This document shows, one piece after another, positions 2,801-63,533 of a stretch of 64,000 bases of DNA (the stretch's first letter is position 1; every line of letters starts with the position of its first letter). The translations under genes and the position numbers were made by a program. The stretch covers positions 1-64,000 of the forward strand of contig JANQEN010000063.1 in assembly GCA_028278335.1 (NCBI GenBank), read 5' to 3'. This DNA comes from Chitinivibrionales bacterium (GTDB lineage Bacteria > Fibrobacterota > Chitinivibrionia > Chitinivibrionales > JANQEN01). The notes under the pieces are model-generated. The model ran no database searches. It saw only the letters and a program-made list of their open reading frames with translations, and was not told the origin of the DNA.

Positions 2801-3727
2801 ATGAAAAATTTGTCTTTTACATCACTCTTTGTTTTAGTTATTATGGGTACTTCCTTTTGTCAAATTATTAAAGGATTTCATGATTATAAGATTGGTGACT
2901 CATTATTCTTTATTGTTAAAAAGGTGGAGCAATCACAGACTAGCAATGACACCATTCTAAAGTATGTAACCAAATCAAAACGTACGTATATTGTTGACTC
3001 AATAATAACCAAAGGAGATTCTACACGTTACGTAGTAGCTTACCATGAAAAAGGGACCATAGTATATTTCAAATCAGGTAATGCTTATGACACCGTACCT
3101 GTAAACAGTAACGAGGTAGGCGTTTATCTAACGTATAAAGGAAAACGAATCAAATATCAACACAATGAATTTTTTCCTAAAAAAGCAAGTTACTCTGAAA
3201 ATGAACTTTGGGACACAGTCACAACTCGCTATGGAAATTTATATTACAATGGATCATTACGCGATTATGTTCGTTTTTATTATTGGTCTGGAGGTCCTGG
3301 AGGTGCTACCAATATAGTTTCATTCTGTTATCTGTCTGGTTTTGGTACTGTATATTGGGATAGACTGTGTAGTCATGCCACAACCAATATGGTTAACGAT
3401 TTAACAATGCAACTGATACGGTATAATGATATTGTTATAAATCCTGATGATCTTGATACGCTTCTATTACCAACAGCAATAGAACCAAAGCAAAAGCAAA
3501 TTAAAATCAATAGCATACGCTCAATGCATGAGCTGCATTCAATAGTTAATGCAAAAAAGTCCACCTATTCTATTGCCTTTTATTCTTTAAATGGCCGTAT
3601 CGTTCAAACAAAGATCTCTAACAATGAAATTAACACTCTATTAAAATTAATACCCTCAGGAGTATATATCATAAAAGGAAAGGTTAATGATATCCCCTTC
3701 TCTTTTAGACAAGTATTTACTCATTAA
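2801..3727 (+). CDS. Secreted protein with C-terminal sorting-type domain
   Basis: The 308-residue product begins with a signal peptide ending near CQIIKG. The central 200 residues are beta-rich and match no family I recognise. The last ~70 residues have the pattern of a type IX/FlgD-like C-terminal domain: YS..FYSLNGR, then an IPSGVYIIKGK segment, then a final strand. This suggests export across the outer membrane or surface anchoring. AGGAG precedes the ATG. Its stop codon overlaps that of the convergent esterase gene by a few bases. Confidence 0.75.
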   Translation: MKNLSFTSLFVLVIMGTSFCQIIKGFHDYKIGDSLFFIVKKVEQSQTSNDTILKYVTKSKRTYIVDSIITKGDSTRYVVAYHEKGTIVYFKSGNAYDTVPVNSNEVGVYLTYKGKRIKYQHNEFFPKKASYSENELWDTVTTRYGNLYYNGSLRDYVRFYYWSGGPGGATNIVSFCYLSGFGTVYWDRLCSHATTNMVNDLTMQLIRYNDIVINPDDLDTLLLPTAIEPKQKQIKINSIRSMHELHSIVNAKKSTYSIAFYSLNGRIVQTKISNNEINTLLKLIPSGVYIIKGKVNDIPFSFRQVFTH

Positions 3728-4569
3728 AACTTTTCAAAGAAATTCCATATGCGATCAGTAGCAGACCAATTGGTTCTATCAATAGAGGGCCAATCATGCC
3801 CAGCATTATAGAGATAGCATAGCACAATATCTCCCGTGCCCTCGGTGGATTTCCATCGTACCTCATGATGCAGCGTATCTTTGAGAATGGTGTCACAGGT
3901 TGTTGAACACTTATTCCATTGTTGCCAGATTTTTAGAATAGAGTCTTGTGGTGGGCAAGGCATCCTTCCTGCAAGCAATCCTCCCTCATAGGGAACAACA
4001 TGATCCTTAGCTCCGTGTATATGCATTAAGGCAACTGAAGAGTTTGGTGTTGGGATAGGGCTATACATGGGGCCTGCAATACAGGCCATGGCAGTAATTT
4101 TCTCGGGAATATTGGCACTGAGCTTGTAGGTCATCATGGCGCCATTGGAGTGACCCGCAACAAAGACCTTAGTCTCATCAATCATATACGCGCCCAATAA
4201 GGTGTCTATCAATCCAGAGAGGAATCCCACATCATCGGCATTGCGACTCCCCTGCTCAAAATGAATACCAGCATTCCACACATAATTACGATTGCCAAAA
4301 TCCTCACGAGTACCAATAGGGTAGGCAACGATGAATCCCTCGGTATCAGCTTTTTTACTAAATTCGGAATACTCAGGCATGCCACTGACATCAAAATGGT
4401 AGCCGTGAAGCACCAGTACCAGCGGGACTTTGTTAGCCCCAGTGTAGGATTGAGGAACGTGGATTTTATATTCACGGCCCTGGGTTTCAACTATGGGTGT
4501 GTTATCTTCACAAAAAAGAAATAGCAGAGAACAAATAATGAGTGAGAATATAGTGTGACACATCTTCAT
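3724..4569 (-). CDS. Esterase, PHB-depolymerase/CE1-like (LpqC family) lipoprotein
   Basis: This is an alpha/beta-hydrolase of the polyhydroxybutyrate-depolymerase/feruloyl-esterase type. The nucleophile motif GHSNG has Ser141 (numbered from the ATG at 4569). A later HGAKDHVVPY segment supplies the probable acid Asp, and NAGHDWP near the C-terminus supplies the His. An oxyanion-type HGY follows VPLVLVL. The N-terminus is a lipoprotein signal with Cys20, so the enzyme is probably envelope-anchored. A GTG at 4578 is in frame, but AGGAG overlaps it, so the ATG at 4569 is the better start. It lies 14 bp downstream of the GH16 gene on the same strand. This suggests a two-gene polysaccharide-degradation operon in which the esterase removes acyl groups. 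Confidence 0.85.
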   Translation of the reverse strand: MKMCHTIFSLIICSLLFLFCEDNTPIVETQGREYKIHVPQSYTGANKVPLVLVLHGYHFDVSGMPEYSEFSKKADTEGFIVAYPIGTREDFGNRNYVWNAGIHFEQGSRNADDVGFLSGLIDTLLGAYMIDETKVFVAGHSNGAMMTYKLSANIPEKITAMACIAGPMYSPIPTPNSSVALMHIHGAKDHVVPYEGGLLAGRMPCPPQDSILKIWQQWNKCSTTCDTILKDTLHHEVRWKSTEGTGDIVLCYLYNAGHDWPSIDRTNWSATDRIWNFFEKF

Positions 4570-4583
4570 AATCGACACTCCTG

Positions 4584-5438
4584 TTATTTATAGACCCGCA
4601 CCCAGTCAACGTACATTTTAATATCTTTTTTACGGTAATTTTTAGCGATCGGATTATCCGAGCGAGGATAGTCACCGCCAACAGCAACATTTAAAAGTAT
4701 GTAGAGCGGATTATCTACAAAGGCTTTTTCCTTTTCAGGATTATCTATGGCAAAGGTATGGTAGCAACTGTCATCAATATATCCTTTGATCTCCTTCTCG
4801 GTCCAATCAACACGAAACACATGATAGTCCTTGCCACTGTATTTGGCATAGCTTCCTTCGTGTCTATTGTTAGGCCAAGCAGTATAGTGTTGCGTACAAC
4901 CCACGACCATTGGCGTTGCACCACCCTGTTCCATAATGTCAATTTCTCCGCATTCAGCCCACTTTGTTTTTTCAGGAGGCTCCCCTGCATTGGAGCCCAT
5001 CATCCAGAAGGCAGGCCAAAGACCTACATCACCATAGGGTAATTTAATACGGGCCTCAACGCGTCCATAGGTTACATCAAACTTTCCCTTGGTAACGATC
5101 TTTCCCGAGAAATAATTCTTTCCCTCTTTCACTTTCCTTTTATAGGTTGTGGCTATCACTAAGTTCCCCTTTTCAACGGTCACGTTTTCAGTACAATAGT
5201 ACTGCAACTCATTGTTTCCCCAGCCATCCATAAAGGGATAGTACTCTTTGCCGGTTCCATTTTCATAGGACCATTTGCTGGTGTCAAGCGCACCGGACTC
5301 AAACTCGTCACTCCAGACCAGAGAGTCAAAGGTTTGTTGTTCATCAGTATTCACATCTTGCCCATCTACGGCAAAGCTTGTTACACAAAAAAGAAAAATT
5401 ATTACGGCTATAAAAAAAGCGCCATATCTACTGTCCAT
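4584..5438 (-). CDS. GH16 endo-beta-glucanase (laminarinase/lichenase type)
   Basis: The 284-residue secreted enzyme has a signal peptide and a single GH16 domain from about residue 40 to the end. It begins with VWSDEFESG.LDTSKW. The catalytic motif GEIDIME places the nucleophile Glu165, Asp167 and the acid/base Glu170 as usual for the family. The FWMMGSN and YHVFRVDWTE segments are also typical. GH16 enzymes of this kind cleave beta-1,3 or beta-1,3-1,4 glucans; substrate cannot be fixed from the sequence. AGGAG precedes the ATG. It is first in a probable operon with the esterase at 3724. Confidence 0.93.
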   Translation of the reverse strand: MDSRYGAFFIAVIIFLFCVTSFAVDGQDVNTDEQQTFDSLVWSDEFESGALDTSKWSYENGTGKEYYPFMDGWGNNELQYYCTENVTVEKGNLVIATTYKRKVKEGKNYFSGKIVTKGKFDVTYGRVEARIKLPYGDVGLWPAFWMMGSNAGEPPEKTKWAECGEIDIMEQGGATPMVVGCTQHYTAWPNNRHEGSYAKYSGKDYHVFRVDWTEKEIKGYIDDSCYHTFAIDNPEKEKAFVDNPLYILLNVAVGGDYPRSDNPIAKNYRKKDIKMYVDWVRVYK

Positions 5439-5713
5439 GATGTGTCTCCTTTGTAAGAATCACAAAATCTATCTAATCTCTTAGCATCTTGTGCAATATG
5501 ATGAATTAGTCGCTGTGAATATAGTACCTTCAAATTCTTGCTGCAAGTATTTTATCGTTCTCAAATAATAACAAAATTCAAATATTAATTTATTGAATTT
5601 TAAATGAACTTAAAGGTATATTGAAATAAATAAATTGCCACGTTGAAAACAAATGATAACCTCAGTTACATTGTTTCGCTGGTTCACATCCAACTTTAAC
5701 GTAGGAGTATAAA

Positions 5714-6100
5714 TTGAATATCTACGTAGGGAATTTCCCCAAAACCATCGATGATGAAGCGATCCGCAACCTTTTTTCAGCACACGGCGAGGTGACTGAA
5801 GTAAAACTACTTAAGGATCGATATACTGGTGAACTTAGAGGTTTTGGTTTTGTTATTATGGATTCGAAAGATGACGCCTTAAAGGCCATTGAAGCAATCA
5901 ATGGTTCCGAGCTTGAAGGGCGTAAGCTTGTTGTCAATGAAGCCCGTCCCAAAAGAGACAATCGCGGCGGCGGCGGCGGTGGTCGTGGAGGTTTCCGCGG
6001 CGGCGGCGGCGGTGGTGGCGGCGGTTACCGCGGTGGCGGTGGTGGTGGCGGCGGTTATCGCGGTGGCGGTGGTGGCGGCGGCAACCGCAGTCGTTATTAA
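5714..6100 (+). CDS. RRM-domain RNA-binding protein with glycine-rich tail
   Basis: The first ~80 residues form a single RNA-recognition motif. RNP2 is IYVGNF at residues 3-8, and RNP1 is a RGFGFVIM segment around residue 43. The remaining ~45 residues are an RGG/YRGG tail of almost pure Gly and Arg, encoded by near-identical GGT/GGC blocks. Start is TTG at 5714, with TAGGAG at 5702-5707. Proteins of this type bind single-stranded RNA and are often cold-induced in bacteria. The 275-bp upstream region may carry its control, but I see no definite element there. A strong terminator follows. Confidence 0.93.
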   Translation: MNIYVGNFPKTIDDEAIRNLFSAHGEVTEVKLLKDRYTGELRGFGFVIMDSKDDALKAIEAINGSELEGRKLVVNEARPKRDNRGGGGGGRGGFRGGGGGGGGGYRGGGGGGGGYRGGGGGGGNRSRY

Positions 6101-6138
6101 TCAACACCCCTTGCTAATTAGTGTACTTAAATAGATTG

Positions 6139-6170
6139 CCTGAAGGGATCATCCCTTCAGGTTTTTTTTA
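6139..6170 (+). terminator. Rho-independent terminator of the RRM gene
   Basis: CCTGAAGGGAT pairs with ATCCCTTCAGG and is followed by eight T residues. It lies 38 bp past the RRM stop codon. It is among the clearest terminators in the window. Confidence 0.92.
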
Positions 6171-6332
6171 GGTATTATCTAAAAAATCATTTCCTACTGC
6201 GATTGGCTCCAACATACTTTAGATTTCGTTGCATTCAATCACGGATTCTCACCGAGCTTGGCTCTTTCCTGTGCCTCATCAAAAGGTTTTTTACTCAGCC
6301 TCAAAATTAAACTGGTTTATTAGAGTTCACCT

Positions 6333-6854
6333 TTAATTATTTCCAGAAAAGAGTTCAGACTGAAGTTTACAGTAAGTGTTTTGAAAACAGGTCCCACATT
6401 CCCCGCAACAACCATCGATTATATGACAAAAGGCTCCCGAATGTGGTGGATAGGTCATTGTGTAGGGAATGACTTTCTGCGTTAAATGATGGTATAGTTC
6501 TTTGTCCGGCACATTGCCGTAGACAATTATCTGAATATTGTGCTCCTTGAACACCCCTAAGATATACCTGACCTTCTGTTTAATCTCTTTAATCCCTAAT
6601 GTTTCAACTGCGGGAAAGGAGGGAGCTTCGTAAAAAAGCGTTTGCATAGGACGTTTAGGAGCAGCCTCTAACTCTTCGATAGAGGAAAAGCTGTACTTAG
6701 GTAGATTGTCAGTTTTATGCCCAAGAGACTCTCCTCTTTGCGATACAGAATGAGAGCTTAATTGCAGTGAAAGATCCAAGGCACTTTTTTCTAACACCTT
6801 ATCCAGCTCTTTCTCCTCATCGCTTTTCCATAGATCATCATCAAATAAGTTCAT
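6333..6854 (-). CDS. Uncharacterised cytoplasmic protein with C-terminal Cys cluster
   Basis: This 173-residue protein has no signal peptide. The N-terminal half is acidic and polar and probably disordered. A folded segment from about residue 90 (IKEIKQKVRYIL) leads to a C-terminal cluster of six Cys, GCCGECGTCFQNTYC. That spacing could bind a metal or an Fe-S cluster. A GGGGGA site precedes the ATG. I do not recognise the family. It is a single gene with no obvious operon partner. Confidence 0.7.
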   Translation of the reverse strand: MNLFDDDLWKSDEEKELDKVLEKSALDLSLQLSSHSVSQRGESLGHKTDNLPKYSFSSIEELEAAPKRPMQTLFYEAPSFPAVETLGIKEIKQKVRYILGVFKEHNIQIIVYGNVPDKELYHHLTQKVIPYTMTYPPHSGAFCHIIDGCCGECGTCFQNTYCKLQSELFSGNN

Positions 6855-7169
6855 AATTCCCCCGAATTTTGTCTACTTATTCATTAGCTGATAGGAAACA
6901 TTTACTCACCCTCAGAGCCTAATATCTCTCTATTAATTATACAATATACTCCCCTTATTAAAGCACTCTAATTTAGCCAGTCTCAAGACAAAACTGAATT
7001 ATTAGAGGTCACGTAATGATAAAAATAGTATTTTGTAAAATAGTTTACATATTGATAACAGCAAAAACCTCAGGCTCCTTACAAATAGTGGTTGGTTGAG
7101 GAAGAGCACAGATGTATAATAAAAACAGCTATTAACAATGAATGCGCTATGAATTCGTACCTAAGACAT

Positions 7170-8642
7170 ATGATGAAACCCATACTTCTTGTTATATCAC
7201 TGCTTAGTATCACCTTCTCTGTAGAACAAACAGAGAAAACACCTTTCAGTATCAATGCTTTACAATATTTAATTGACAGAAAAGAGTACGACCGCTTTGA
7301 TTGGTTTATGAGCTGCTATCTTAAACGCCATCCAGACACTGCCGATCTGCATCGTATAAACGCACAACGCCTTTTTGATGAAGCAAAAACTATACGATCC
7401 TTAAAGACTACCGTGTTATATAATCGCACCGGTGGTATTCCAAGAAAATATCCCTCCTTTTTGTCAGCAGTTAAACCCTATACCACCGATGCCATTGCAG
7501 CACAGTTTAATGACTCCCTTTTGAATGAGGCGTTCACAGCTCTCAGATACGCACGCACCCTCTCTCCTGGTAGAAAAGAGATATATTGGGATCTGTGCAC
7601 TATGGCCGCCCAGTCAGGCAGATCGGACATCCTATTACAGGAGGTACGTCGATACGCTGCACCCTTTGGCTATTCACAGAAAGTAAAGGATCTTGTCTAT
7701 TCCTATACACAACGAATCATCAAGGAACGAGCAGACTCAAACACAATAGCCCTGTTACGGAATTACATTTCCAACAATCCTGCTGATAGCAAGACACATC
7801 TGCTTATTAGTGACAACTTCTCCTTTGCTGGCGAGGTGGATAGTGCCTTCCAGTATACCCTTTTTGCACTCAAGCATGACAGCAGCAATGTAGCTCTTTG
7901 CAGGCGAGCAATAAAATTAGCCACTATTCGTGGTGATTACGCAAAGGCCTCAGAGCTTGCCCGTAAATGCTTTCAATTATCAAACAATCTATCAGACTTA
8001 GAACAGGCAGCAATTTGTTCCTATGCTTTTGATCGTTTTCAAGGGAAAATTATTTACAAAGAGATAAAAGAGTCTCCAGGTTATGTTGACACACTATCTA
8101 TCAGTCGATGGGTTTTTGAAGATCTATTATCACTTACCAATGATTCCTTAGGAACACATCTCTTTACTGGTGAGCTCTTTCATTTAAATTTTCCTTTGTT
8201 TTACATACTCTATCGGCAAACCAGTGACCAAACCTCTTATTTCCATAATAAAGCTGGAGCGTACTATATCCATGGGCTCTATGATAGTGCGGCATATTAC
8301 AATTTAAAGCTCATTCGCACGCTCAAAGATAACATGGCAATTGGAAACAAGGCAATATATAACCTTGCTGCAGAATACTATGCTTCAGGAAAATATCTAC
8401 TCTCCTTCCAGCTCTTTCTTTGGATCTATCACTATTTTCATGGCTGGCAAGATCTTGCGGTGAGCTATGGTCTGGGCGTCAATTACGAACGATTAGGGGA
8501 TTATCTACGTGCAAAAAAGTATTATCGAAGCATTATTAAGAAGGCCAATGTAAATAACAAAGAGAGCAAAACCCTAAAGGATTTGGCTCTCTATCGTATA
8601 AAGTATATCAAAAAGTTGAATCCAATTATTTATACGGAATAA
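7170..8642 (+). CDS. Secreted TPR-repeat protein
   Basis: The product is about 490 residues and rich in helical repeats, with TPR-like A/Y/L spacing. Examples are the KTHLLISDNFSFAGEVDSAF and FQYTLFALKHDSSN segments, and later a GVNYERLGDYLRAKKYYRS repeat. A signal peptide begins at the MMKPILL segment, so I prefer the ATG pair at 7170/7173. An in-frame TTG at 7092 or ATG at 7149 would add residues before the hydrophobic core, and none of these has a strong Shine-Dalgarno site. It probably acts as a periplasmic or envelope scaffold; no enzymatic domain is visible. Confidence 0.75.
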   Translation: MMKPILLVISLLSITFSVEQTEKTPFSINALQYLIDRKEYDRFDWFMSCYLKRHPDTADLHRINAQRLFDEAKTIRSLKTTVLYNRTGGIPRKYPSFLSAVKPYTTDAIAAQFNDSLLNEAFTALRYARTLSPGRKEIYWDLCTMAAQSGRSDILLQEVRRYAAPFGYSQKVKDLVYSYTQRIIKERADSNTIALLRNYISNNPADSKTHLLISDNFSFAGEVDSAFQYTLFALKHDSSNVALCRRAIKLATIRGDYAKASELARKCFQLSNNLSDLEQAAICSYAFDRFQGKIIYKEIKESPGYVDTLSISRWVFEDLLSLTNDSLGTHLFTGELFHLNFPLFYILYRQTSDQTSYFHNKAGAYYIHGLYDSAAYYNLKLIRTLKDNMAIGNKAIYNLAAEYYASGKYLLSFQLFLWIYHYFHGWQDLAVSYGLGVNYERLGDYLRAKKYYRSIIKKANVNNKESKTLKDLALYRIKYIKKLNPIIYTE

Positions 8643-8643
8643 A

Positions 8644-9456
8644 TTATTCGACTGGGATTTCTGGTTTATTTACTGCATATCCTTTAGGAGCCTCAAACAG
8701 GGTGGGAGCCAACTTTTTCTGCTGCACCTTGTTAAATGTTGTTTCTAACCGAGCTAGGCCCTCTTCATATTCAATTACCTTTACGGGAAATCCATCAATC
8801 TCTTTACTGTGAGTATAGGGGTTATCAAAGGAGTTGTACATGGGGCTATTTTGAAAGGTGGCAAAGAGGTCTTTAAGAAAATCACTCATCATAACAAATG
8901 CCTCAAGGAGTTTTTTGCTATGTTTGAGATTGTTCCATTTTGTCACCCATAATGCACGGACCTTTTTATTATTGAGCATTACCTCATATAATTCACAGTT
9001 GTAAGGGCCAATCTTCGCGGTTTTACCGACCTTTACAACAGAGTAGCTAGCTTTTGAAGCCTGACCCAAGGCGAGCATTTGCTGGTTCATCATCCCCTCC
9101 ATCATGGCCCGCTGTTCTGGAGGCATTTGTGCCAGTTGTGCTTCCATTTGTTTCATTGCCTTTTGCATAGTTTGACCCATCTTATCCATTGTGGCTTTAT
9201 CAATTTCAGTACACTCTTTTTTTATATCATCCACAGCAAGGATCAACTCTTTATCGCCTCTAAATATGGTATAAGCTTTTTGTTCACTTTGTAACATTTT
9301 CATGGCAATTTTCTTGCCACTAATAAACATCTCCCCAGTAGTAGGAGCTGCCTTTTTGTCAGCTAGGTCCTTGCTGGTAAAGGATAATACTAAATCATTG
9401 GAAAAAATGGAAATGGACAGCAAAAGTACATTAATACATATAACAAAGGACTTCAT
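8644..9456 (-). CDS. DUF4412-like secreted protein
   Basis: The 270-residue protein has a signal peptide (cleavage near IFSND). A beta-rich region follows that resembles DUF4412: GEMFISGKKIAMKM, then a segment reading out a redox or metal-like state variable (TIFRGDKELILAVDD). The central part is a Met/Gln-rich helix (residues ~90-130: MEAQLAQMPPEQ, MMEGMMNQQ). The end is a YEVM..N.K..ALWV domain. Such proteins are periplasmic with unknown role. GGGGAG precedes the ATG. It converges on the TPR gene, with its stop codon a few bases beyond that gene's stop. Confidence 0.75.
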   Translation of the reverse strand: MKSFVICINVLLLSISIFSNDLVLSFTSKDLADKKAAPTTGEMFISGKKIAMKMLQSEQKAYTIFRGDKELILAVDDIKKECTEIDKATMDKMGQTMQKAMKQMEAQLAQMPPEQRAMMEGMMNQQMLALGQASKASYSVVKVGKTAKIGPYNCELYEVMLNNKKVRALWVTKWNNLKHSKKLLEAFVMMSDFLKDLFATFQNSPMYNSFDNPYTHSKEIDGFPVKVIEYEEGLARLETTFNKVQQKKLAPTLFEAPKGYAVNKPEIPVE

Positions 9457-10630: not shown

Positions 10631-11068
10631 ACAACAACCATCTTGTCTAACATATTGATTCATACAGTAAACAAGATTTTTTATAAAATTGAAATTTATT
10701 TGTGAAGCTATCAAACCACACCTTTATTAACATCGTATTATATTCATTATAACTATTAGCACAGTGGTTATTATTTGTTCTTAAATCTTTTGAGACGTTT
10801 TTTAGTCGGCCACAATCTAATATAGCTTAATTTTATTTATTTGTGGTAATCATTTTTATTATACACAGTTTTTCAGGAGAATCTATGTTTTTATTTTGCG
10901 TTAACCTGAATCTATATTATTTATATACTGTTTCTCAAAAGTTTTGTCCCATGATTTTTGACAAAACTCTTATAGAAACAGTTATACCGCAACACAACAT
11001 AGGACAAGATTGTTGAGAAGCGGAACAATTATAATAATGGAAGTATTCCTTAACACTGAGGGATCAAC
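10631..11068. other. Intergenic region with a long inverted repeat before deformylase
   Basis: The stretch is AT-rich without a gene. At 10928-10981 the arms CTGTTTCT...AGAAACAG and AGTTTTGTC...GACAAAACT form a long imperfect hairpin with an A/T-rich loop. It lies about 90 bp upstream of the deformylase start. It lacks a T tract, so it may be a small palindromic repeat or a regulatory hairpin. Confidence 0.5.
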
Positions 11069-17632: not shown

Positions 17633-20600
17633 CTAGACTTTTTGTGTTTCCTTTTTCCGACTTTCTATCCAGAGATAGAGCGTTGGAATCACCAACAATG
17701 TTAATGTAGTAGAAGAGGCCAATCCACCAAGGACAACAATTGCTAATGGTCTCTGCACCTCAGCTCCTGGTCCTGTTGCCAAAATCATGGGCAACAGACC
17801 CAGAAAGGTAGTAACAGAGGTCATGAGTACGGGACGTAGTTTAGAGATTGATCCCTGGACAACAGCGTCTTTCAGGTCCGATCCAACATCTCGCAAATAC
17901 TGAATCCGTGCTAAAAGCACCAAATCATCCTCAATTGCAATACCAAAGAGTACAATAAATCCAATTGATGCGGGGATACTTAAATATTCACCCCAAAGCG
18001 CCAATGAAATAACACCTCCCACAAAGGATAGGGGGATATTTAAGAACACAAGCAATGTTTTAGACATTGAATTAAAGGCGCCAAAGATCATCATAAAAAT
18101 GAGAAAGAGGGTGATAGGCACGATAATAGCCAACCGTTTATTCGCCTCTTTTCGAAGTTCAAACTTACCTCCATAGGTAATAACATATCCCGGAGGCAAC
18201 TTTACCCGTTTCTTAATATACTCCCTCAATTCTTCAACAAAGCTTCCCTCATCTCTACCAGTCACATTACATTGGACAGCAACTAACCGGCTTCCATTTT
18301 CATGGCTTGATTGGCGCATGCCTTCGACAAGCTTGATTTCAGCCAACTCTGCTAAAGGAACCTGCTCACCCTGCGGAGTATTAATCAGCAGGTTTTCATA
18401 GGCTTCCACGTCTTTACGATGAGATTCGTCAAAAATGACTGTGATGTCAGTTGTTTTATCTTGCTCAAATACGCGACCAACCCGCTTACCACCAATCGCA
18501 TCATGAATGAGCCGTTGCACATCGGCAATATTAATGCCATATTGGGCAACTTGATCCCTTAACAAGGTTATTTGTAACTGTTTCTGACCAGCGACTTGCT
18601 CTAAGAAGATATCAACAGCTCCCTTTTTTGCAAATTCTAAAAAGAGAATGGAGTCACGAATCATGGTAGCTTTCTCTTCAAGTACTTTGATATCCGGCCC
18701 AAAGATGCGAATTGACACCTGCGATCCAGTGCCGGCAACTAAATCGTCTAGTTCATGCTGAATCGGTTGTGACATGTTAAAGGCAACACCAACATATCCT
18801 TTTAACTTGCCCCTAATCATATTCGCAATATCTTCCTGAGATTTAGCTGTTTTCCACTTCTTTTTTGGGTGCAGTCCAATTTGAATACAGGAGAAATTGG
18901 TTTGATGAACATGGGGTCCCACTTCTCCATAGCCAATATCAGAAGTAGCATAACGAACCTCTGGTATCTCTAAAATCTCCTTTTCAATACGGGATGATAC
19001 CCGGCCAATCTCATTGAGAGAGATGTTTGGATCAAAATAGGCTAATAAATCAATGGTTCCCTCTTTTAAAACTGGTTGAAATATTTTCCCCATTTTTGTA
19101 ACAAGGAATAATCCGGAAATCAAAAGCACGACTGAAATGGTTATAACCATCTTCCATCGACCAAGCAACCAGAGTAATACCTTTTCATAATGCTTGTTAA
19201 GAAAAAATTCTGATTTGTCACGCCCCCGTACTTTTTCAGGGAATAGGCTATAAAGAACCGGCGCAACAATGAGTGCATAAATAAGTGAGCCAATCATTGC
19301 AGTGCATACGGCAAAGGCTAGGGGGCGAAACATCTTTCCCTCAATGCCTTGGAGCGTAAATATTGGTAAGAAAACAAATATAATGATTCCAATAGCAAAG
19401 AATATGGGCCGTCCGACCTCTTTACATCCGTCAAGAATCAATTTTTGCGGCGGTAAAGAGAGTGACTCAGTATGGAGTTTACGATGCATCTTTTCCACAA
19501 TGATAATGGTTGCATCCACAATCATACCTAAGCCAATTGCCAATCCTCCCAGTGATAGAAGGTCTCCCGAGATACCACCTACATAAAACACAATAAAGGA
19601 GAGTAGCAATGCAAAGGGTAAGGACATGACAACCACAATAATATTTTTTACTCTTCCCAAAAAGAGCAATGACACGATGCAAACAAATAACAAACCTTGA
19701 AGAAGTGTGTTTGATATGGTGCGAACACTATTCTTTACCAATTTTCCTTGATCATAAATTGGATAAATCTTCACACCTTCCGGAAGAGTTTGATTTATCT
19801 CATCAATACGTTTGCGCAGTTGCTTGATAACCTCAAAAGAGTTAGCACGATGGAGTTTGTATACCCATCCTACAACAATCTCCTCTTTACCATTCATTGA
19901 GGCAATACCCCGCCTGAACCCTCCCTCTATTGACACATCAGCTACATCGCGAACGTAGACTGGATTATCCTGATAAAAGCCAACAACAATACCAGCAATA
20001 TCGTTTACATTAGAAATACTGCCAATACTTCGAACGATCCACTCTTCCTCACCCTTTTCAATGAGTCCAGCCCCAACGTCTTGATTGTTCTCCTCGATTG
20101 CAGTGGTAACATCATCAAGAGTAATGCCATAGCCGGTTAATTTATAGGGTGATACTTTGACGATAAACTGTTTCACATTGCCACCCTGACTAACCACATT
20201 GGCAATACCAGAAAGGCTTTGGAGGTTAGGTTTGACAATTTCATCCTGAAGAGCACGTAATTCAGTGTTGTCAAGCTTTTTCCCTTCCAGGCGATAATAG
20301 AAGAGCGCTCCAGTTCCACTTGCAACAGAGCCCATTTCCACGCCGTGAGGCATATCAAGCCCTTTAGGAATGTGCTCCTCTGCTTCCACAATTTTTTCAG
20401 CCACCAATTGCCTTGCCTTGTAAATGTCAACCTTGTCTTCAAAGTACACGTTTACCCGTGAAAGACCAAAGGTGGTGATACTCCGAATCCTCTTGACACC
20501 GGGTACTCCAAGCATGGCTGACTCAATTGGTCGAGTTACCATTTTTTCAACGATTTCAGTTGGTGTTGATTCCACCTCTGCAAAAACTTGCACTAGATTG

Positions 20601-20731
20601 GGACTCAAATCAGGAAATGCATCGATAGGTAAATTGATTACTGCAACCGTACCACCAATGCAGACTGCGATAAAAATAAGCACCACAAACATGCGATGCT
20701 TTAAGGCAAATTCTATTAATTTATCAATCAT
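17633..20731 (-). CDS. Heavy-metal RND efflux pump, CusA/CzcA family
   Basis: This 1032-residue inner-membrane pump belongs to the heavy-metal efflux branch of the RND superfamily. The N-terminus has the characteristic first TM helix, then PIDAFPDLSP, VE...M and a PGV segment. The proton-relay helix reads GGLAIGLGMIVDATIIIVEKM with a central Asp, closer to CusA-type than CzcA-type proteins. The duplicated architecture of two 6-TM halves and two large periplasmic loops is complete. It would drive proton-coupled export of Cu/Ag or of divalent metals. AGGA precedes the ATG. It is the last gene of a minus-strand cluster, separated from its adaptor by a repeated structured element. Confidence 0.93.
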   Translation of the reverse strand: MIDKLIEFALKHRMFVVLIFIAVCIGGTVAVINLPIDAFPDLSPNLVQVFAEVESTPTEIVEKMVTRPIESAMLGVPGVKRIRSITTFGLSRVNVYFEDKVDIYKARQLVAEKIVEAEEHIPKGLDMPHGVEMGSVASGTGALFYYRLEGKKLDNTELRALQDEIVKPNLQSLSGIANVVSQGGNVKQFIVKVSPYKLTGYGITLDDVTTAIEENNQDVGAGLIEKGEEEWIVRSIGSISNVNDIAGIVVGFYQDNPVYVRDVADVSIEGGFRRGIASMNGKEEIVVGWVYKLHRANSFEVIKQLRKRIDEINQTLPEGVKIYPIYDQGKLVKNSVRTISNTLLQGLLFVCIVSLLFLGRVKNIIVVVMSLPFALLLSFIVFYVGGISGDLLSLGGLAIGLGMIVDATIIIVEKMHRKLHTESLSLPPQKLILDGCKEVGRPIFFAIGIIIFVFLPIFTLQGIEGKMFRPLAFAVCTAMIGSLIYALIVAPVLYSLFPEKVRGRDKSEFFLNKHYEKVLLWLLGRWKMVITISVVLLISGLFLVTKMGKIFQPVLKEGTIDLLAYFDPNISLNEIGRVSSRIEKEILEIPEVRYATSDIGYGEVGPHVHQTNFSCIQIGLHPKKKWKTAKSQEDIANMIRGKLKGYVGVAFNMSQPIQHELDDLVAGTGSQVSIRIFGPDIKVLEEKATMIRDSILFLEFAKKGAVDIFLEQVAGQKQLQITLLRDQVAQYGINIADVQRLIHDAIGGKRVGRVFEQDKTTDITVIFDESHRKDVEAYENLLINTPQGEQVPLAELAEIKLVEGMRQSSHENGSRLVAVQCNVTGRDEGSFVEELREYIKKRVKLPPGYVITYGGKFELRKEANKRLAIIVPITLFLIFMMIFGAFNSMSKTLLVFLNIPLSFVGGVISLALWGEYLSIPASIGFIVLFGIAIEDDLVLLARIQYLRDVGSDLKDAVVQGSISKLRPVLMTSVTTFLGLLPMILATGPGAEVQRPLAIVVLGGLASSTTLTLLVIPTLYLWIESRKKETQKV

Positions 20732-20767
20732 ACATTTAATCCTAATTTTTTATTTATTTATTTACAC

Positions 20768-20911
20768 GGGGGGAAGGGTCCCCCCACAGCAAGCTTCCTT
20801 CACACTTTTTAACAGTCTTCATTCAAAAGATTAGTTTCACCTACACGGTGAACCTAATCTTTTGAGCAGACTGGATAACAAAACTGTTCAGGTGATCTTG
20901 CTGATTCCCCC
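20768..20911 (+). repeat. Structured ~142-bp intergenic element, copy 1
   Basis: The element starts GGGGGGAAGGGTCCCCCC and ends ATTCCCCC. An outer long-range stem pairs AGCAAG near the left end with CTTGCT near the right end. A central hairpin pairs CAGTCT with AGACTG, then TCAAAAGATTAG with CTAATCTTTTGA, then TTCACC with GGTGAA around a small loop. The same plan, with different bases in the stems, recurs at 49329 (inverted), 54022 and 59063. This copy sits between the RND pump and its adaptor, so it lies inside the operon's transcript. Confidence 0.9.
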
Positions 20912-20989: not shown

Positions 20990-21697
20990 TCAGTGAGCAT
21001 GACCGTGGCCACCAAAGTCGGATTCTGGTTTAAGAAGTTCTGCACGGAGATGGAAGCTACCATCAGTTACAATTTCTTCGCCACCTTTTAGTCCTTTGGT
21101 GATTTGGGTAAAGCCATTGGCTTTAAAGCCAGTTTGTATTTCACGCAATTCATATTTGCCATCTTTACCAGTGCAAACAAAAACACACCGTCTATGGAGA
21201 ATCACATGGATTGCACCATTGGGAACAGAAACAACCTTTTCAGGAGTTTTAAAATTAATGGTACCATTGAGAATTGTTCCCGATATTAAAGCACTACCAT
21301 TGGCATCAAAAGCTGCGATGGCTTCATAAACTCTGCGTTTGGTTTCACTCTCTTTTCGAGTCAAGGAAACAACGTTACCTTTTAATACTTTATCCTTTAA
21401 AAGTGGTGTTTCTGCAGAAACTTCCTGTCCAGCTGAAACAAATTTCTTGTCCTTTTTATGGACGGTAAAAAGAGCCTGATACCGTGCACCTTTTTTTGCA
21501 GTCACTTTTCCTGTAAGCCGAACCTTTTTCTCCATTACCATAGGTTCAACTTTCTCATATTTTAATTTCATCTTTTCTTTTACATTTGAAGGCAACTCTG
21601 TTATCACATGGGAGCCCTCACCCATTTTCCATTCTTCCCCAATTATTGAAAAAGTGAACATAAGTAACAACACCAAAACAGTTATTTTTGCTTTCAT
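20990..21697 (-). CDS. Short periplasmic adaptor-like protein (CusB-type C-terminal region)
   Basis: The 235-residue protein has a signal peptide (cleavage near IIGEEW). The beta-rich segments KVRLTGKV, KKFVSAGQEV, and then LVSVPNGAIHV and LKGGEEIVTDG, resemble the membrane-fusion proteins that partner RND pumps. It lacks the long alpha-helical hairpin and full lipoyl half-motifs that contact TolC-type channels, so it is about 100-150 residues shorter than usual. The C-terminus is His-rich (GGHGHAH), suggesting metal binding. The start is supported by AGGAG. It follows the barrel gene by 15 bp and so is co-transcribed with it. Confidence 0.8.
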   Translation of the reverse strand: MKAKITVLVLLLMFTFSIIGEEWKMGEGSHVITELPSNVKEKMKLKYEKVEPMVMEKKVRLTGKVTAKKGARYQALFTVHKKDKKFVSAGQEVSAETPLLKDKVLKGNVVSLTRKESETKRRVYEAIAAFDANGSALISGTILNGTINFKTPEKVVSVPNGAIHVILHRRCVFVCTGKDGKYELREIQTGFKANGFTQITKGLKGGEEIVTDGSFHLRAELLKPESDFGGHGHAH

Positions 21698-30514: not shown

Positions 30515-30679
30515 CCCAGATTATGCAATAGGAAGCAGTGTAGAAGCACAATCTTATGCCCATTAAGACTTTCAGGCTTTTCGGGCATATCACCTTGTAG
30601 ATATGCCCTTCAAAACCTTCAAGTCTTACTAAATCATACCCTTGCACTTCTGCATCTACTCCTACTGCACAATCTGGGA
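30515..30679. mobile_element. MITE-like element with 19-bp terminal inverted repeats, copy A
   Basis: The ends are CCCAGATTATGCAATAGGA and TCCTACTGCACAATCTGGG, which pair at 16 of 19 positions. Inside, AAGACTT pairs with AAGTCTT and GGGCATATC with GATATGCCC around a small loop, so the whole element can fold into one structure. It has no coding capacity. ATAAA precedes the left end and follows the right end, a possible 5-bp target duplication. A longer relative lies at 63276. It sits between two genes, after the peptidase. Confidence 0.82.
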
Positions 30680-30689
30680 TAAATAAAAA

Positions 30690-44902: not shown

Positions 44903-44977
44903 CACTCCTTCAATGCTAGCAATTTCATTCTAACAATTCAGAAAAAGTACAAAATAAAACGATTTTAATCCCCTTCA

Positions 44978-45147
44978 ATCGCGCCGCCGAATGGTTCAGA
45001 AAAGCACGAGTGGTTGTCCGAGGGGAAGCCGAGTTTAACGAGTGCCTGAACCTGAGGCGAAAAGGGCGATTGCGGGGCGGTGTTTCTTTGCATACTTTCT
45101 TTGCACAAGCAAAGAAAGTATGTCTGCTGTCGGGCAGTATCCCGACG
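44978..45147. repeat. GC-rich structured element downstream of recB
   Basis: This element is much richer in GC than its surroundings. It contains a perfect 14-bp hairpin, CATACTTTCTTTGC/GCAAAGAAAGTATG with loop ACAA (45091-45122), then a smaller TCGGG/CCCGA hairpin. The preceding 100 bases have other paired segments, among them GGTTCAG and CTGAACC. Such intergenic elements occur in many bacteria; I cannot name this one. No gene is supported. Confidence 0.7.
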
Positions 45148-45387
45148 ATTTTATTATTTAAAAAACATCTCACCTATGTATAGAATAATATCCTGGATTA
45201 AGTTTCAGTAATTGGATCCCCGTCCACGCGAGCATGACAGTCCACATATTATTAAAAACCAAAAAAGTAGATGAATTCAAAAGTAATTTTCCATCAAAGA
45301 TCGATCTTTAAATATTAATTCCAATATGATATAATCAAAATTCAAAAATCCTTATTGGGGTTGGAACGAATTATCAAGGGGAACCAC

Positions 45388-48366: not shown

Positions 48367-49236
48367 CTAATTAATTGGTTTATCATTAACATGGACATAG
48401 GGTATTACTGTTGTATCCTTATTTGAATTTATCCGCGTGAACATTTCCTCAAAATCTTGGATCTCCTTGTCTGAGTCTATACCAAAATAATCCTTGAACT
48501 CCTTCAGTGGCACTCTTCGAGTCATAGTAACAAAGAAGCTTATTGCAACATAGGTAATACAGGCAAAGATGGTAGCTCCTAAACTTATCATACTGATAAA
48601 AAAGAATACTGACAAAATCATAAGCATTGCCCCAAAGGAGCCAAATCGAACAGACCAATCAATAAGTCTGAATCTACTTTTTATGGGAATGATTGGTGTT
48701 TGTGTATTGATGTGCAAAAGGTCTGCATAGTAAAGAAGTACAGCGCTCACTGACATAAATCCAAGAGCAAAATAGAGTAATGTTTTATTTGAATCATCAA
48801 TTTTATCAAATTCGATAACTAACATGGTAATGGAAAGCAAAACCATACCAATTGTTATTGCCGCATAATTTCCCCAATTGTACTGCGAGTGATACTCAAG
48901 CATATCCTCAAGTTTTAATCTCTTAAGATTAAGAAGGGTCTCCTCATAGGGACGATAGATAGTAACCAGCTTTTTTGTTCCTAATTTTAAATTTATTAGG
49001 ATTATTGCAATTAAAGCAATAAGCGTCATCAAAACACTCAGTACACCCCAGAATTTGCTTTTAGTTAGCCCCCATATGATTGCTTTCTCTACTTCAGTCT
49101 TCTCAAGCATATCATTTTGATCCTGTTGAGAGGATACACTTATTTCCTTATTTGCATTGTTACTCTGTGAATGACTTGTATACATCAAAAAGAAAAGAGG
49201 TAGTATAAAGATTAATAGGATATGGGGTTTACGCAT
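48367..49236 (-). CDS. Multi-pass membrane protein of unknown function
   Basis: The 289-residue protein has an N-terminal signal or first helix, then about five further membrane segments (residues ~65-85, 125-145, 152-168, 195-230). The region between helices 1 and 2 and the C-terminus is charged and cytoplasmic or periplasmic. I recognise no family. It converges on the kamA-like gene with stop codons 3 bp apart. Confidence 0.65.
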   Translation of the reverse strand: MRKPHILLIFILPLFFLMYTSHSQSNNANKEISVSSQQDQNDMLEKTEVEKAIIWGLTKSKFWGVLSVLMTLIALIAIILINLKLGTKKLVTIYRPYEETLLNLKRLKLEDMLEYHSQYNWGNYAAITIGMVLLSITMLVIEFDKIDDSNKTLLYFALGFMSVSAVLLYYADLLHINTQTPIIPIKSRFRLIDWSVRFGSFGAMLMILSVFFFISMISLGATIFACITYVAISFFVTMTRRVPLKEFKDYFGIDSDKEIQDFEEMFTRINSNKDTTVIPYVHVNDKPIN

Positions 49237-49328: not shown

Positions 49329-49470
49329 GGGGGAATCAGCAAGATCACCTGAGCACTTTTGTTATCTGCTTGCCCATAAAGACAGGTTGACCGAGCAGGT
49401 TAAACTGGATTTATGGATGCAAGCAGTTAAAAAGCGTGAAGGAAGCTTGCTGTGGGGGGAGAATCCCCCC
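49329..49470 (-). repeat. Structured ~142-bp intergenic element, copy 2 (inverted)
   Basis: Read on the minus strand this copy has the same plan as copies 1, 3 and 4: a GGGGGG...CCCCCC block, then AGCAAG pairing with CTTGCT near the far end. CTGCTTGC pairs with GCAAGCAG, and CCATAAA with TTTATGG. Its apical stem is weaker than in the others. It lies between two divergent genes rather than after a stop codon, which argues against a simple terminator. Confidence 0.88.
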
Positions 49471-49611: not shown

Positions 49612-50445
49612 ATGAAAACAAAAACAATTTTTATTCCTTTAATAAGACTGAAATTAGTACAACTCATGCTTCCTATCCTCCTATTAAACCTATTCTCCTT
49701 TGCAGCAAATAAAAAAGAGGCTCTTTGTACTATCCTCTCCCCTACTCCCTTAGGTGAAAAGAAATATACCCCCCAGGGAATGACCTGGGTCGACAGTACC
49801 TTGCTATTTGCAAATACCTGGAAGAACAAAAAGAGTCGTGTCTACCATCTTGAAACTGACTCGCTTTCTATTCTCTCATACTTTGACATGCCTAAAGAGG
49901 CGGTGCACACCAGTGGTCTTTGTATTATTGACGGTTTTCTTTGGGGAGTGGACTACAAATCGAATCGGGCCTATAAAATTGACTACAAACAATCCTTTGC
50001 CGATAAGAAGTGCGCCCTTGTGGGTTCTTTTGATACTGGCCTTAAGGGCACCAGTGCCTGTTGTGCTGTGCACTACAAAGGACAAAGTCTCCTTGCAATC
50101 TCTGACTTCATGCGCACCCGTAAAGTGATATTTGTTGATCCTGAAAAGTGTTTGAAAGCAGGATCAACAGGCAACAATGTACTATACTTTTACAAAAACC
50201 AGGGCTTTTCCCAGGGACTTGAATGGGACGGGACCTATCTCTACGAGTCGGAAAATAAATTACCCCGTGCAATTATTAATAAGATCGATTTGGAAAAGGT
50301 CTGTGCCACCCATAAAGTAAAGGATGGACTCATCCAGCAGTATACCTTACCAGTAAAGGGAATCGAGGACCTTGCCTTTGACGGGGAGAAGTTCTGGTCC
50401 AGTGATGAGATCCTTTTTAAGTTTTTAACCATAACCCTTCCATAA
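49612..50445 (+). CDS. Secreted beta-propeller-like protein
   Basis: The 277-residue protein has a signal peptide (cleavage near SFAANK). Repeating segments have the shape of a propeller blade: GMTWVDSTLLFANTWKNKKSRVYHLE, LCIIDGFLWGVDYKSNRAYKID, GLEWDGTYLYESEN and IEDLAFDGEKFWSSDE. Such folds often bind sugars or act as enzymes such as glutaminyl cyclase, but I see no active-site residues. The start lacks a Shine-Dalgarno site. The gene at 50475 follows within 30 bp. Confidence 0.7.
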   Translation: MKTKTIFIPLIRLKLVQLMLPILLLNLFSFAANKKEALCTILSPTPLGEKKYTPQGMTWVDSTLLFANTWKNKKSRVYHLETDSLSILSYFDMPKEAVHTSGLCIIDGFLWGVDYKSNRAYKIDYKQSFADKKCALVGSFDTGLKGTSACCAVHYKGQSLLAISDFMRTRKVIFVDPEKCLKAGSTGNNVLYFYKNQGFSQGLEWDGTYLYESENKLPRAIINKIDLEKVCATHKVKDGLIQQYTLPVKGIEDLAFDGEKFWSSDEILFKFLTITLP

Positions 50446-54021: not shown

Positions 54022-54162
54022 GGGGGGAAAATCCCCCCATAGCAAGCTTCCTTCATGCTTTTTAACTGCTTGCATCTATATAACCTGTTTCACCTAGCCG
54101 GTGAACCAGTTTTTATAGGCAAGCAGATAACAAAACCACTCAGGTGATCTTGCTATTCCCCC
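54022..54162 (+). repeat. Structured ~142-bp intergenic element, copy 3
   Basis: It has GGGGGGAAAATCCCCCC at the left and ATTCCCCC at the right. Paired segments are AGCAAG/CTTGCT (outer), CTGCTTGC/GCAAGCAG, CTATA/TATAG and TTCACC/GGTGAA (apical). It lies 28 bp after the stop codon of the lipoprotein gene and just upstream of the second 42-bp array. Confidence 0.9.
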
Positions 54163-54184
54163 TTAAATCAAACACTTTAAATTG

Positions 54185-57069: not shown

Positions 57070-59037
57070 GTGTGTAAAAGATTTCAACTCCTTCTAGTTC
57101 ATCTAACCATTGTTCTGTTATGTACGTTCCACACTGTTACAGCCTGTTATGTTATTGCTGCAGGAAAGAAAGCAACCGCTGACGGTTCGGTTATTTTTGG
57201 TCATGTTGAGCAGAATTATACTGACTGTGTATTGAATTTTCGATACATTCCTAAACGGACATATGGTCCCAACACATCGATTACACTCTATCGCGGTGGT
57301 AAACTTGCTCAAGTTACAGAAACCAATGCGCTTTTGTGGACACAGAACATCAAACAGGAGTTTGCCGACGGCTTTATGAATGAGTGGGGTGTGGGCATCT
57401 ACACAAACCTTTGTAATGCGAAGGAGAACCGGCCCCAATTAACTGATGGCGGCATTGGTTTTCTGTTACGTCGATTGGTTGCAGAGAGAGCTAAAACCGC
57501 ACGACAAGGGGTCCATGTGGCAGCCTCATTGGTAGAGAAGTTTGGCTATGCAGCACCAACCGGTAGAACCTTGACTATTGCTGACCCTAATGAGATCTGG
57601 CTTGTTGCGCTCTGTAAAGGCAAACACTGGCTTGCACGGCGTGTTCCCGATGATCAAGCCATTGCCATGCCCAATACGTTTATCATTCGTGATGTCAATT
57701 TAGCTGATACCATGAACTTCTTGGCAAGTGACAACCTTATTGAGTATGCTAAAAGCCGTGGATGGTATAGTTCCGGTACGTTTATCTTTACTAATGTCTA
57801 TGGCACCGGTTATAACAGTAGTGAATATGATCGTCAATGGAAGGGACAGAAGGCGCTGACCAGGTCTGTAGTGCCCCATGGTAATACCATGCCCTTCTCT
57901 GTAAAACCGGATAGAAAGCTCACTGTGGCTAATGTCGCAGCAATCTTAAGAGAGCACGACAACTATGCCACCCAGGAGATCACCGTGTATCAATTGCGCA
58001 ATCAGAGCATGCGTGAGATAGACTGCATTTTCTGGCGTACCACAGCCCAGGGAAAGTATAGTGCTCTGACTCCATGGTATGCAGGAATAACTAAAACACC
58101 AGAGTATTACTGTAAAAAGGTGAGTGTTGAGCAGCAACTAACCCTTGATTATCATTTTAAGCCGCCCCAGGGAACCTTTTCTCAGGACCCTAATTTGATT
58201 TGGTGGGAATACCTTGGTTTACAGAAACGAGTTCAAAACAGCGCCAAGGGACAACAACGAGTAATCCAGGTATGGGAGGAGTTTGAAAGTCGCACCTTTG
58301 GACGACAACCCCATTATGAAGTGGATATGCGTAAGATGTATCCAACACAAAAGGACTCTGTTCGATCAATGCTCACCACCCTGTGTAATCATAGAGCCCA
58401 TACTGCAGCGACCCTTGCTAACAAGATGAATAAAAGTTGGATCACAAATAACTCAAGCAACTACTGCGTTGCCCTGGCAACAGCCTATCCTCTAACAGGC
58501 ACGCAGCCACACACTGTACTCTTTGACGGGTTTAGTTGCTCAAATGAGAGGATTTCCTCAAAAACCTGGGATATGGGTAATGGAACCACCTATAACAATG
58601 CCATTCCAGTGTACACCTATAGAGATACAGGCACCTTTTATGCAACCTATACGGTTAGAACAAGTCAAAATGCAATTGATATAGACACGGTGATAATCAA
58701 AGTGAAGCCGGGCGCCGTTCATAATAATAACTTCAAAAAGATTACCTCTGCTGTAAACAGAAAAGATTGTCATATACATTTTGATAATGCTTCACAGAGC
58801 ATTATGATTGAGTGGAATCGGTCAACATCGGTGCAAAGTCCAACTTTTGCTCTCTATTCACTTAAGGGCAGCCGTGTATTTGAACTAACTCTCGGTTCCA
58901 TATCAAAGGGAAAGCATTCTATTGCATGGTATGGTGATAATCATTTGGATAGGAAGATTTCATCGGGAACGTATGTGGCAGTTTTAATGGTGGATCGAAA
59001 TCGAATTATTAAAGCGCCGATTCACATTTCAAATTGA
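57070..59037 (+). CDS. C69-family dipeptidase with PKD and sorting domains
   Basis: The 655-residue product starts at a GTG with GGGGG upstream. A signal peptide ends just before Cys26, which is the N-terminal nucleophile of an Ntn-hydrolase (ACYVIAAGKKATADGSVIFGHVEQN). C69 peptidases (PepD-like) are dipeptidases that mature by autocleavage to this Cys. The domain covers residues 26-440. A PKD-type domain follows at about 475-545 (DGFSCSNERISSKTWDMGNG, then YTYRDTGTFYATYTV). The last ~75 residues are a sorting-type domain. Secretion and anchoring make it likely to act on peptides outside the cell. Confidence 0.9.
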   Translation: MCKRFQLLLVHLTIVLLCTFHTVTACYVIAAGKKATADGSVIFGHVEQNYTDCVLNFRYIPKRTYGPNTSITLYRGGKLAQVTETNALLWTQNIKQEFADGFMNEWGVGIYTNLCNAKENRPQLTDGGIGFLLRRLVAERAKTARQGVHVAASLVEKFGYAAPTGRTLTIADPNEIWLVALCKGKHWLARRVPDDQAIAMPNTFIIRDVNLADTMNFLASDNLIEYAKSRGWYSSGTFIFTNVYGTGYNSSEYDRQWKGQKALTRSVVPHGNTMPFSVKPDRKLTVANVAAILREHDNYATQEITVYQLRNQSMREIDCIFWRTTAQGKYSALTPWYAGITKTPEYYCKKVSVEQQLTLDYHFKPPQGTFSQDPNLIWWEYLGLQKRVQNSAKGQQRVIQVWEEFESRTFGRQPHYEVDMRKMYPTQKDSVRSMLTTLCNHRAHTAATLANKMNKSWITNNSSNYCVALATAYPLTGTQPHTVLFDGFSCSNERISSKTWDMGNGTTYNNAIPVYTYRDTGTFYATYTVRTSQNAIDIDTVIIKVKPGAVHNNNFKKITSAVNRKDCHIHFDNASQSIMIEWNRSTSVQSPTFALYSLKGSRVFELTLGSISKGKHSIAWYGDNHLDRKISSGTYVAVLMVDRNRIIKAPIHISN

Positions 59038-59062
59038 TTTAGTAGAACATAAAGACTTGACG

Positions 59063-59204
59063 GGGGGAAATTTCCCCCCACCCCAAGCTTCCCTCACTCT
59101 TTTTAACTTCTTGCATCCTCAAAATCTGTTTCACCTAATCGGTGAACCAGCTTTTGAGGGCAAGCAGGTAACAAAAGAGCTCAGGTGATCTTGGGGATTC
59201 CCCC
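59063..59204 (+). repeat. Structured ~142-bp intergenic element, copy 4
   Basis: The plan matches the other copies. The outer stem is CCCCAAG/CTTGGGG here, where the others have AGCAAG/CTTGCT; both sides changed together. CCTCAAAA/TTTTGAGG and TTCACC/GGTGAA form the inner hairpin. It starts 25 bp after the stop codon of the dipeptidase gene. Confidence 0.9.
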
Positions 59205-63275: not shown

Positions 63276-63480
63276 CCCAGATTATGCAATGGGAAGTAGC
63301 GCAGAAACACACCACGACTTTGACCGGATGTACGCTTGGGAAGTAGCCTGTAACCCTATGCCCATTAAGACTTTCAGGCTTTTCGGCCATATCACCTTGT
63401 GGATATGCCCTTCAAAGCCTTCGAGTCTTACTAAATCATAATCTTGCACTTATGCATCTACTCCTACTGCATAGTCTGGG
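63276..63480. mobile_element. MITE-like element with terminal inverted repeats, copy B
   Basis: The ends CCCAGATTATGCAATGGGA and TCCTACTGCATAGTCTGGG pair well. The interior matches copy A at 30515 from CCCATTAAGACTTTCAGGC onward. Copy B is about 40 bp longer because of an insertion in the left arm that repeats GGGAAGTAGC. There is no coding capacity. Two copies 33 kb apart suggest a small non-autonomous transposable element. Confidence 0.8.
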
Positions 63481-63533
63481 TTTTAGAATCGTCGTTTCTT
63501 TATCTGTAGCAGCTTTATTTTTTATCTTTTGCG

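Follow-up and report, generated by a model that had tools for sequence, protein, structure and literature searches.

The window, that is, the whole stretch of 64,000 nucleotides analysed here, contains four copies of an element of about 142 bp, at the places given in the earlier note and with ends that we refined in the sequence (Table 1). The contexts described there, with the copies at 54022 and 59062 preceded by stop codons (at 53993 and 59037, respectively), a copy between divergent genes that start at 49236 and 49612, and a copy that lies upstream of an RND pump gene (PF00873 match) inside a minus-strand cluster, agree with the sequence, and the stem pairs quoted are present in the copies. 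We do not count the plus-strand ORF 20424-20834 (136 aa), which overlaps the copy at 20768, among the genes, since most of it is opposite the RND pump gene. A pattern search of the window for G5+/C5+ hairpins returned the four copies only. These copies are real and share one fold, as had been claimed, but they are a small part of a larger family.

Table 1. Parts and contexts of the element copies in the window (window coordinates), and copies elsewhere in the genome that carry the 3' module (contig handles, with position where given).
Feature	Position	Sense strand	Basis	Context or detail
Copy 1 (type I)	54022-54162	minus	R1 match 54034-54163, minus, 140.5 bits	
G5 block, sense-strand 5' end, copy 1	54158-54162	minus	sequence	
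P1 base stem, 5' arm, copy 1	54149-54155	minus	fold; alignments A3 and A5	
Internal-loop strand beside P1, conserved, copy 1	54142-54148	minus		AUCACCU on the sense strand
Apical hairpin region, copy 1	54085-54110	minus	fold; A3	
P1 base stem, 3' arm, copy 1	54040-54046	minus	fold	pairs with 54149-54155
G6/C6 hairpin, sense-strand 3' end, copy 1	54022-54038	minus	fold	
Copy 2	20768-20911	minus	R1 match	between 20990-21697 (minus) and RND pump gene 17633-20731 (minus)
Copy 3	49329-49470	plus	R1 match	between divergent genes 48367-49236 (minus) and 49612-50445 (plus)
Copy 4	59062-59204	minus	R1 match	start 25 bp past the stop of 57070-59037 (plus)
Copies with the 3' module	C117:2972, C119:35879, C134:4967, C60:1860, C7, C15, C128			

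The host genome is a draft of 6.33 Mb in 301 contigs, 90.48% complete. Eight matches to FISUMP domains, which also turn up in a Bacteroides control, point to a Fibrobacterota-like host; the assembly gave no 16S match. A first DNA search of this genome returned at least 40 places (the best 40 of 81 candidates scored). The covariance model R1 was built from 38 of the 41 copies viewed, the other three, whose ends the pattern did not recognise, being left out of alignments A1-A3. Searching the genome with such a model was the check that the earlier note had proposed, and it yielded further copies, at least 73 places at 53.9 bits or more among the best 150 of 2531 candidates scored; the 126 matches comprise these 73 places and 53 opposite-strand readings of them. 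Beyond the R1 places, pattern search added a contig-end fragment (C107:1-80) and a relic (C18:8441). An R1 scan of 386 kb of the same genome, 280 kb of it from one large contig and the rest from contigs partly chosen for holding copies, gave 18 sense matches, all previously listed, and missed a copy of a second subfamily in stretch L158 (5578-5712). Patterns for the 5' half matched 48 and 75 times, compared to 7 and 2 for control patterns, and the matches were listed copies, the fragment and the relic just mentioned, plus some others. Two of these (C183 and C300) are unlike the element on reading, and the remaining extra matches, judged from their matched letters alone, are taken as chance. 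A split autonomous element found no support. A copy lies no more than about 300 bp from the start of eight contigs (C18, C48, C267, C217, C122, C223, C19, and C128), in some cases with other repeats there, so the assembly may lose copies. We also observe a cluster in L158 (C34), where four type I copies and one second-subfamily copy lie within 5.5 kb (3550-9054) among ordinary-looking genes.

On the sense strand, the element is made up of a G5 block, a base stem of seven pairs (P1), an internal loop, a rod of interrupted helices with variable sequence, a tip, the second arm of P1, and a G6/C6 hairpin, in this order. In 68 of 71 copies, the 5' strand of the internal loop has AUC with A or C as the next base. 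In the flank logo, the 3' flank past the G6/C6 hairpin begins with G (91%) and continues with a loose A-rich and then T-rich stretch (T at 66-69% at the seventh to tenth base), and the last two bases of the 5' flank are A (78%) and A (61%), with no fixed target motif beyond. Three of the 74 copies were left out of this logo, and hence of the pair, duplication, flank-pairing, and spacing tests described below.

The length is 139-148 nt in 62 of 71 copies and 165-214 nt in eight, and the last one is a mini copy of 74 nt that keeps P1 and the loop and has no rod. Two extra modules occur at fixed joints, and nine copies carry one or both: a tip module of about 45 nt (C59, C89, C7, C15, and C128) and a 3' module, a hairpin with a GUGA-type loop beside P1, in seven copies. 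In a tree of 70 copies, from which the mini copy and C128 were left out, the long copies are scattered, but shuffled labels are equally so, and for the four copies with the 3' module alone 385 of 500 label shuffles do as well. The well-supported branches are compatible with one origin of the long copies; repeated loss or exchange of the modules is only suggested. The second subfamily, with at least four copies (in stretches L037, L021, L013, and L061), has the G block, P1, the AUC loop, and the 3' hairpin in common with type I and differs in its rods. Its copies are absent from the best 150 of 2531 candidates that make up the R1 listing of the genome, and two of them score 50.7 and 57.9 bits with R1 when their own stretches are searched.

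Each of the four window copies folds 6.65-7.93 standard deviations better than its shuffles. In alignment A3 (38 copies), the source of the fold, 94.7% of the cells pair, and 158 cells are changed on both sides and still paired, compared to 37.2 after shuffling, with none of 500 shuffles as high. Alignment A5, comprising 24 copies outside A3, was fitted to R1 and therefore leans towards the model; it shows 92.6% paired cells, 160 two-sided changes against a shuffled mean of 44.8, and a covariation score of 0.458, where slid registers reach 0.110 at most. None of the 500 shuffles and no slid register comes up to the observed two-sided stem changes. In P1, 99.6% of the cells are paired in A3 and 94.0% in A5. 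Selection on structure, which the earlier note had read from four copies, is thereby seen also in 24 copies that were not used to derive the fold. The note had named two outcomes that would speak against it, namely no significant covariation in a larger alignment and no further copies; since the selection is confirmed and more copies were found, neither occurred.

The wobble pairs are unevenly distributed between the two strands. Counted on the sense (reverse-complement) strand, G-U pairs outnumber A-C mismatches by 41:6 in A3, ambiguous loop pairs excluded, and by 37:10 in A5, and the excess of sense-strand wobbles persists, at 38:24, when the structure is derived from the opposite strand. 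The folded strand of three of the four window copies is therefore the minus strand; in these three, the G-U-bearing strand is the reverse complement of the one on which the element had initially been described. A strand-specific mutation bias is a possible mimic of this asymmetry. Positions that do not belong to the counted pairs, among them the G block, are less diverged than the stems in five of six divergence bins, the exception being a bin of 7 close pairs in A5.

The balance between compensated and broken pairs changes with divergence. Among A3 copies that are at least 85% alike, two-sided paired and one-sided broken differences stand at 128:143, and among those 70-78% alike at 1884:645; in A5 the ratio goes from 13:18 among copies at least 85% alike to 1232:623 among distant ones, the copy pairs in all of these counts being non-independent. 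The trend is compatible with a fold that is kept in a mobile lineage and decays in settled copies. Compensation that rises with divergence would also be expected if selection acted at each locus, and whatever the selection for pairing, changes in two steps take time to accumulate; the trend is therefore not decisive.

Outside the host genome, the element is nearly absent from what was searched. Besides the own genome, a blastn search of 41 genomes (the own genome and 40 relatives) found a single eroded match of 39 bases at 85% identity, in a different genus of the family. R1 on 167 genomes of the phylum gave a single positive, the own genome, under stricter filters that also miss the eroded copy, and under laxer filters it gave no convincing match in 39 relatives. 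Weak R1 matches in four relatives from the order (G028, G031, G006, and G016) are unlike the element on reading. GTDB genomes, in collections that may omit the own and very near records, were scanned with an exact pattern (in its narrower form it fits 28 of the 41 own copies); the one hit, in Sphingorhabdus, comes without the remainder of the element and is attributed to chance. Neither this pattern nor a second one matched viral contigs, and plasmids and phages held no match to one copy used as query, the same records being possibly omitted there too. No Rfam family reached its gathering score in the whole window. Permissive Rfam searches of three stretches (one copy, a long variant, and a second-subfamily copy) gave sub-threshold matches only, mostly to microRNA families, the best being MIR7994 for the second-subfamily copy (E 1.4e-05, 35.2 bits against a gathering score of 100). 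By title or abstract, we found no open-licence paper describing the repeat.

Relative to genes, which were predicted by our own ORF scoring and not taken from annotation, the element is intergenic: none of 74 copies shares more than 30 bp with a predicted gene, and one shares 21 bp. The spacing test includes the 64 copies with both neighbours (a neighbouring gene is missing for the other ten of 74). A stop codon faces the sense 3' end in 29 of these 64 copies, and in 23 of the 29 it lies 14-55 bp away, whereas copies placed uniformly within those gaps would give 5.0, with none of 20000 draws as high; the distances are approximate and, where the 3' module is present, overstated by as much as about 25 bp. 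For stops that face the 5' end, the same interval holds 1 of 36. This oriented spacing behind stop codons is unusual. The 35 copies without any stop facing their 3' end uphold the earlier view that the element is not a simple terminator, but many of the other copies are found where one would expect a terminator.

The spacing nevertheless raises the question of whether the structure works in the mRNA of the preceding gene, as a terminator or 3'-end stabiliser, and owes its spread or retention to this role. The excess of stops at 14-55 bp favours this explanation, and so do the surroundings of the 24 copies that we call tail-on (the 23 in that interval and one at 70 bp). None of the 24 has a terminator-like hairpin between the stop and the element, and one of the 24 has such a hairpin in the 120 bases beyond the element, compared to 13 of 34 gene ends in the window, one of which is the element itself (p 0.004), and 1 of 60 random places. 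When the 120 bases past the stop are compared like for like, element included, the counts are 3 of 24 and 13 of 34 (p 0.04). However, the 34 control genes were picked by ourselves, from 47 predicted in the window, as genes not closely followed by another. Moreover, the G-U pairs favour the strand opposite to the gene's mRNA, in tail-on copies too (14:3), T-tracts do not differ between tail-on and other copies, and more than half of the copies tested, 35 of 64, have no stop at their 3' end. We therefore consider a role at gene 3' ends unlikely to explain the family. Insertion into terminator stems is not supported either: the two flanks of the tail-on copies pair with each other no better than shuffled ones do (z 0.59), whereas those of the remaining 47 copies pair a little better (z -2.11).

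A small structured RNA, made from the sense strand at many dispersed loci and acting in trans or as part of a ribonucleoprotein, would account for the strand-specific wobble pairs, the conserved unpaired positions, and the modular extra hairpins, including the GUGA-type loop of the seven 3'-module copies. Against this, the upstream signal consists of A-richness only, and there is no strong orientation bias with respect to the upstream gene (36 on the same strand, 28 opposite, n=64), which leaves an RNA at each locus weakly supported; the Rfam results given above do not point to an RNA family. The unnamed RNA class suggested in the earlier note thus appears quite improbable. An integron-like recombination site is a third explanation for a rod-like imperfect hairpin with a strand preference that often lies behind a gene. 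By inspection, the element's termini are G and C blocks and lack the core motifs of attC sites, and its copies occur on many contigs in both orientations. As far as the cited text describes them, attC sites such as VCR are likewise folded single strands with a variable tip, whose strand choice comes from unpaired features (PMC2727003); the element differs from them by its other termini, its scattered orientation, and the lack of a cassette array. From its termini and arrangement, an attC-like site seems a very remote prospect.

The closest copies speak for mobility of the element. The three closest copy pairs are 97.9, 93.7, and 93.0% identical, and their flanks (up to about 150-195 bases) are without similarity. 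Unrelated flanks were seen in 24 of the 25 closest pairs, the exception being C60:4400 and C122 (92.2% identical), which have a 28-base upstream match in common. No target-site duplication stands out among 71 copies (best z 3.2 among several hundred comparisons), and a TTTAT-type motif is absent from the flank logo. The G5 and C5-6 ends could pair, as in a classical MITE, but the target-site duplication of such elements was not found. GC skew is positive at 37 of 74 copies, which gives no sign of a replication-strand bias.

None of the enzymes considered for this movement could be linked to the element. PF00078 (RVT_1) has no matches in the genome, and a reverse-transcriptase route or a group II intron derivative is therefore unsupported; since the genome is a draft, a reverse transcriptase gene may be missing from it. 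A TnpB omega-RNA or IS200/IS605 element is likewise not indicated, with no matches to the TnpB zinc ribbon (PF07282) in the genome and no fixed 5' target motif. There are eight Y1_Tnp matches in the genome, and the element was not seen flanking any of these eight genes, four of which are so close to a contig start (about 180 bp or less) that one flank is unseen; mobilisation by a flanking Y1/RAYT gene thus finds no support. About 0.85 kb separates one divergent copy, of the second subfamily, from a Y1 gene with repeats of its own. At L061:1423-2200, a Y1 (IS200/REP-type) transposase gene is accompanied by its own CCCTCACGGTCGGGGCACGG-type repeats, which are distinct from the element.

Among known repeats, bcr1 carries no gene of its own. 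According to the cited text, bcr1 and the other Bacillus cereus repeats measure 100-400 bp, are restricted to one bacterial group, and have features of mobile DNA, with a mean bcr1 copy number of 39 per strain and a mobility linked to a TTTAT motif (PMC6542083). Compared by description only, the element resembles bcr1 in size class, high copy number, restriction to one group, and mobile features, and it differs in that no duplication was found here, whereas bcr mobility is TTTAT-linked. The oriented stop-codon spacing, the optional extra hairpins, and the G/C end blocks are features observed in the element described here. REP elements are given as 21-65 nt long (PMC6006769), and those with a RAYT (TnpA-REP) as having a GT[AG]G foot and lying near the transposase gene, in the cited parts of PMC6006769 and PMC12306157. 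By these accounts, the element is like REPs in forming many species-specific intergenic hairpins, some close behind stop codons, and in folding as a single strand. It differs in its size (139-148 nt in most copies), in its foot, where the bases before P1 are GAAT or similar by eye in the listed copies and not GT[AG]G, and in that no Y1 gene was seen flanked by it, given the one flank unseen for four of the eight. The earlier term "mobile REP-like" is accordingly apt for a dispersed, intergenic repeat with near-identical copies in unrelated flanks, but not for its size, its foot, or its relation to Y1 genes. In a survey whose cited text reports 92 stem-loop repeat families from 40 genomes, two thirds of them intergenic and with a shared predicted fold (PMC2267715), the likeness is that of a family with a common predicted fold, and the cited text does not name this element.

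The element is probably a non-autonomous, structure-dependent mobile repeat confined to this lineage. Its behaviour is best read as REP- or bcr1-like, although it lacks the REP features that we looked for. One strand, the minus strand in three of the window copies, folds as a long interrupted hairpin with a separate G6/C6 hairpin at its 3' end. We hypothesize that a protein acting in trans would recognise this folded single strand, be it DNA or RNA, through the loop beside P1 and the G/C ends. The same putative protein would move the folded strand, and the copies would drift afterwards. The placement behind stop codons may come from a site preference, or from tolerance of the element as a stand-in for the gene's 3' end. 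It is conceivable, if doubtful, that the element represents a new class, in which an enzyme new to such repeats acts on the folded strand of about 142 nt via the P1-side AUC(A/C) loop common to the two subfamilies, and places the element one-way, 14-55 bp behind stop codons, where it takes over the 3' end of the gene.

With more than 70 copies of one fold in one genome, the family amounts to a natural covariation experiment, and the copy set can show whether mobility, rather than each locus, preserves the fold. The oriented stop-codon spacing leads to a concrete prediction on 3' ends or on target choice.

The window also contains other repeats. An intergenic repeat of about 120 bp occurs at 30564-30683 and 63366-63482 and resembles, at 85-91% likeness, copies next to several loci and at a number of contig ends. 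Further short dispersed repeats, common to several loci, are found at 10938-11021 (about 84 bp) and 44963-45169 (about 70-210 bp).
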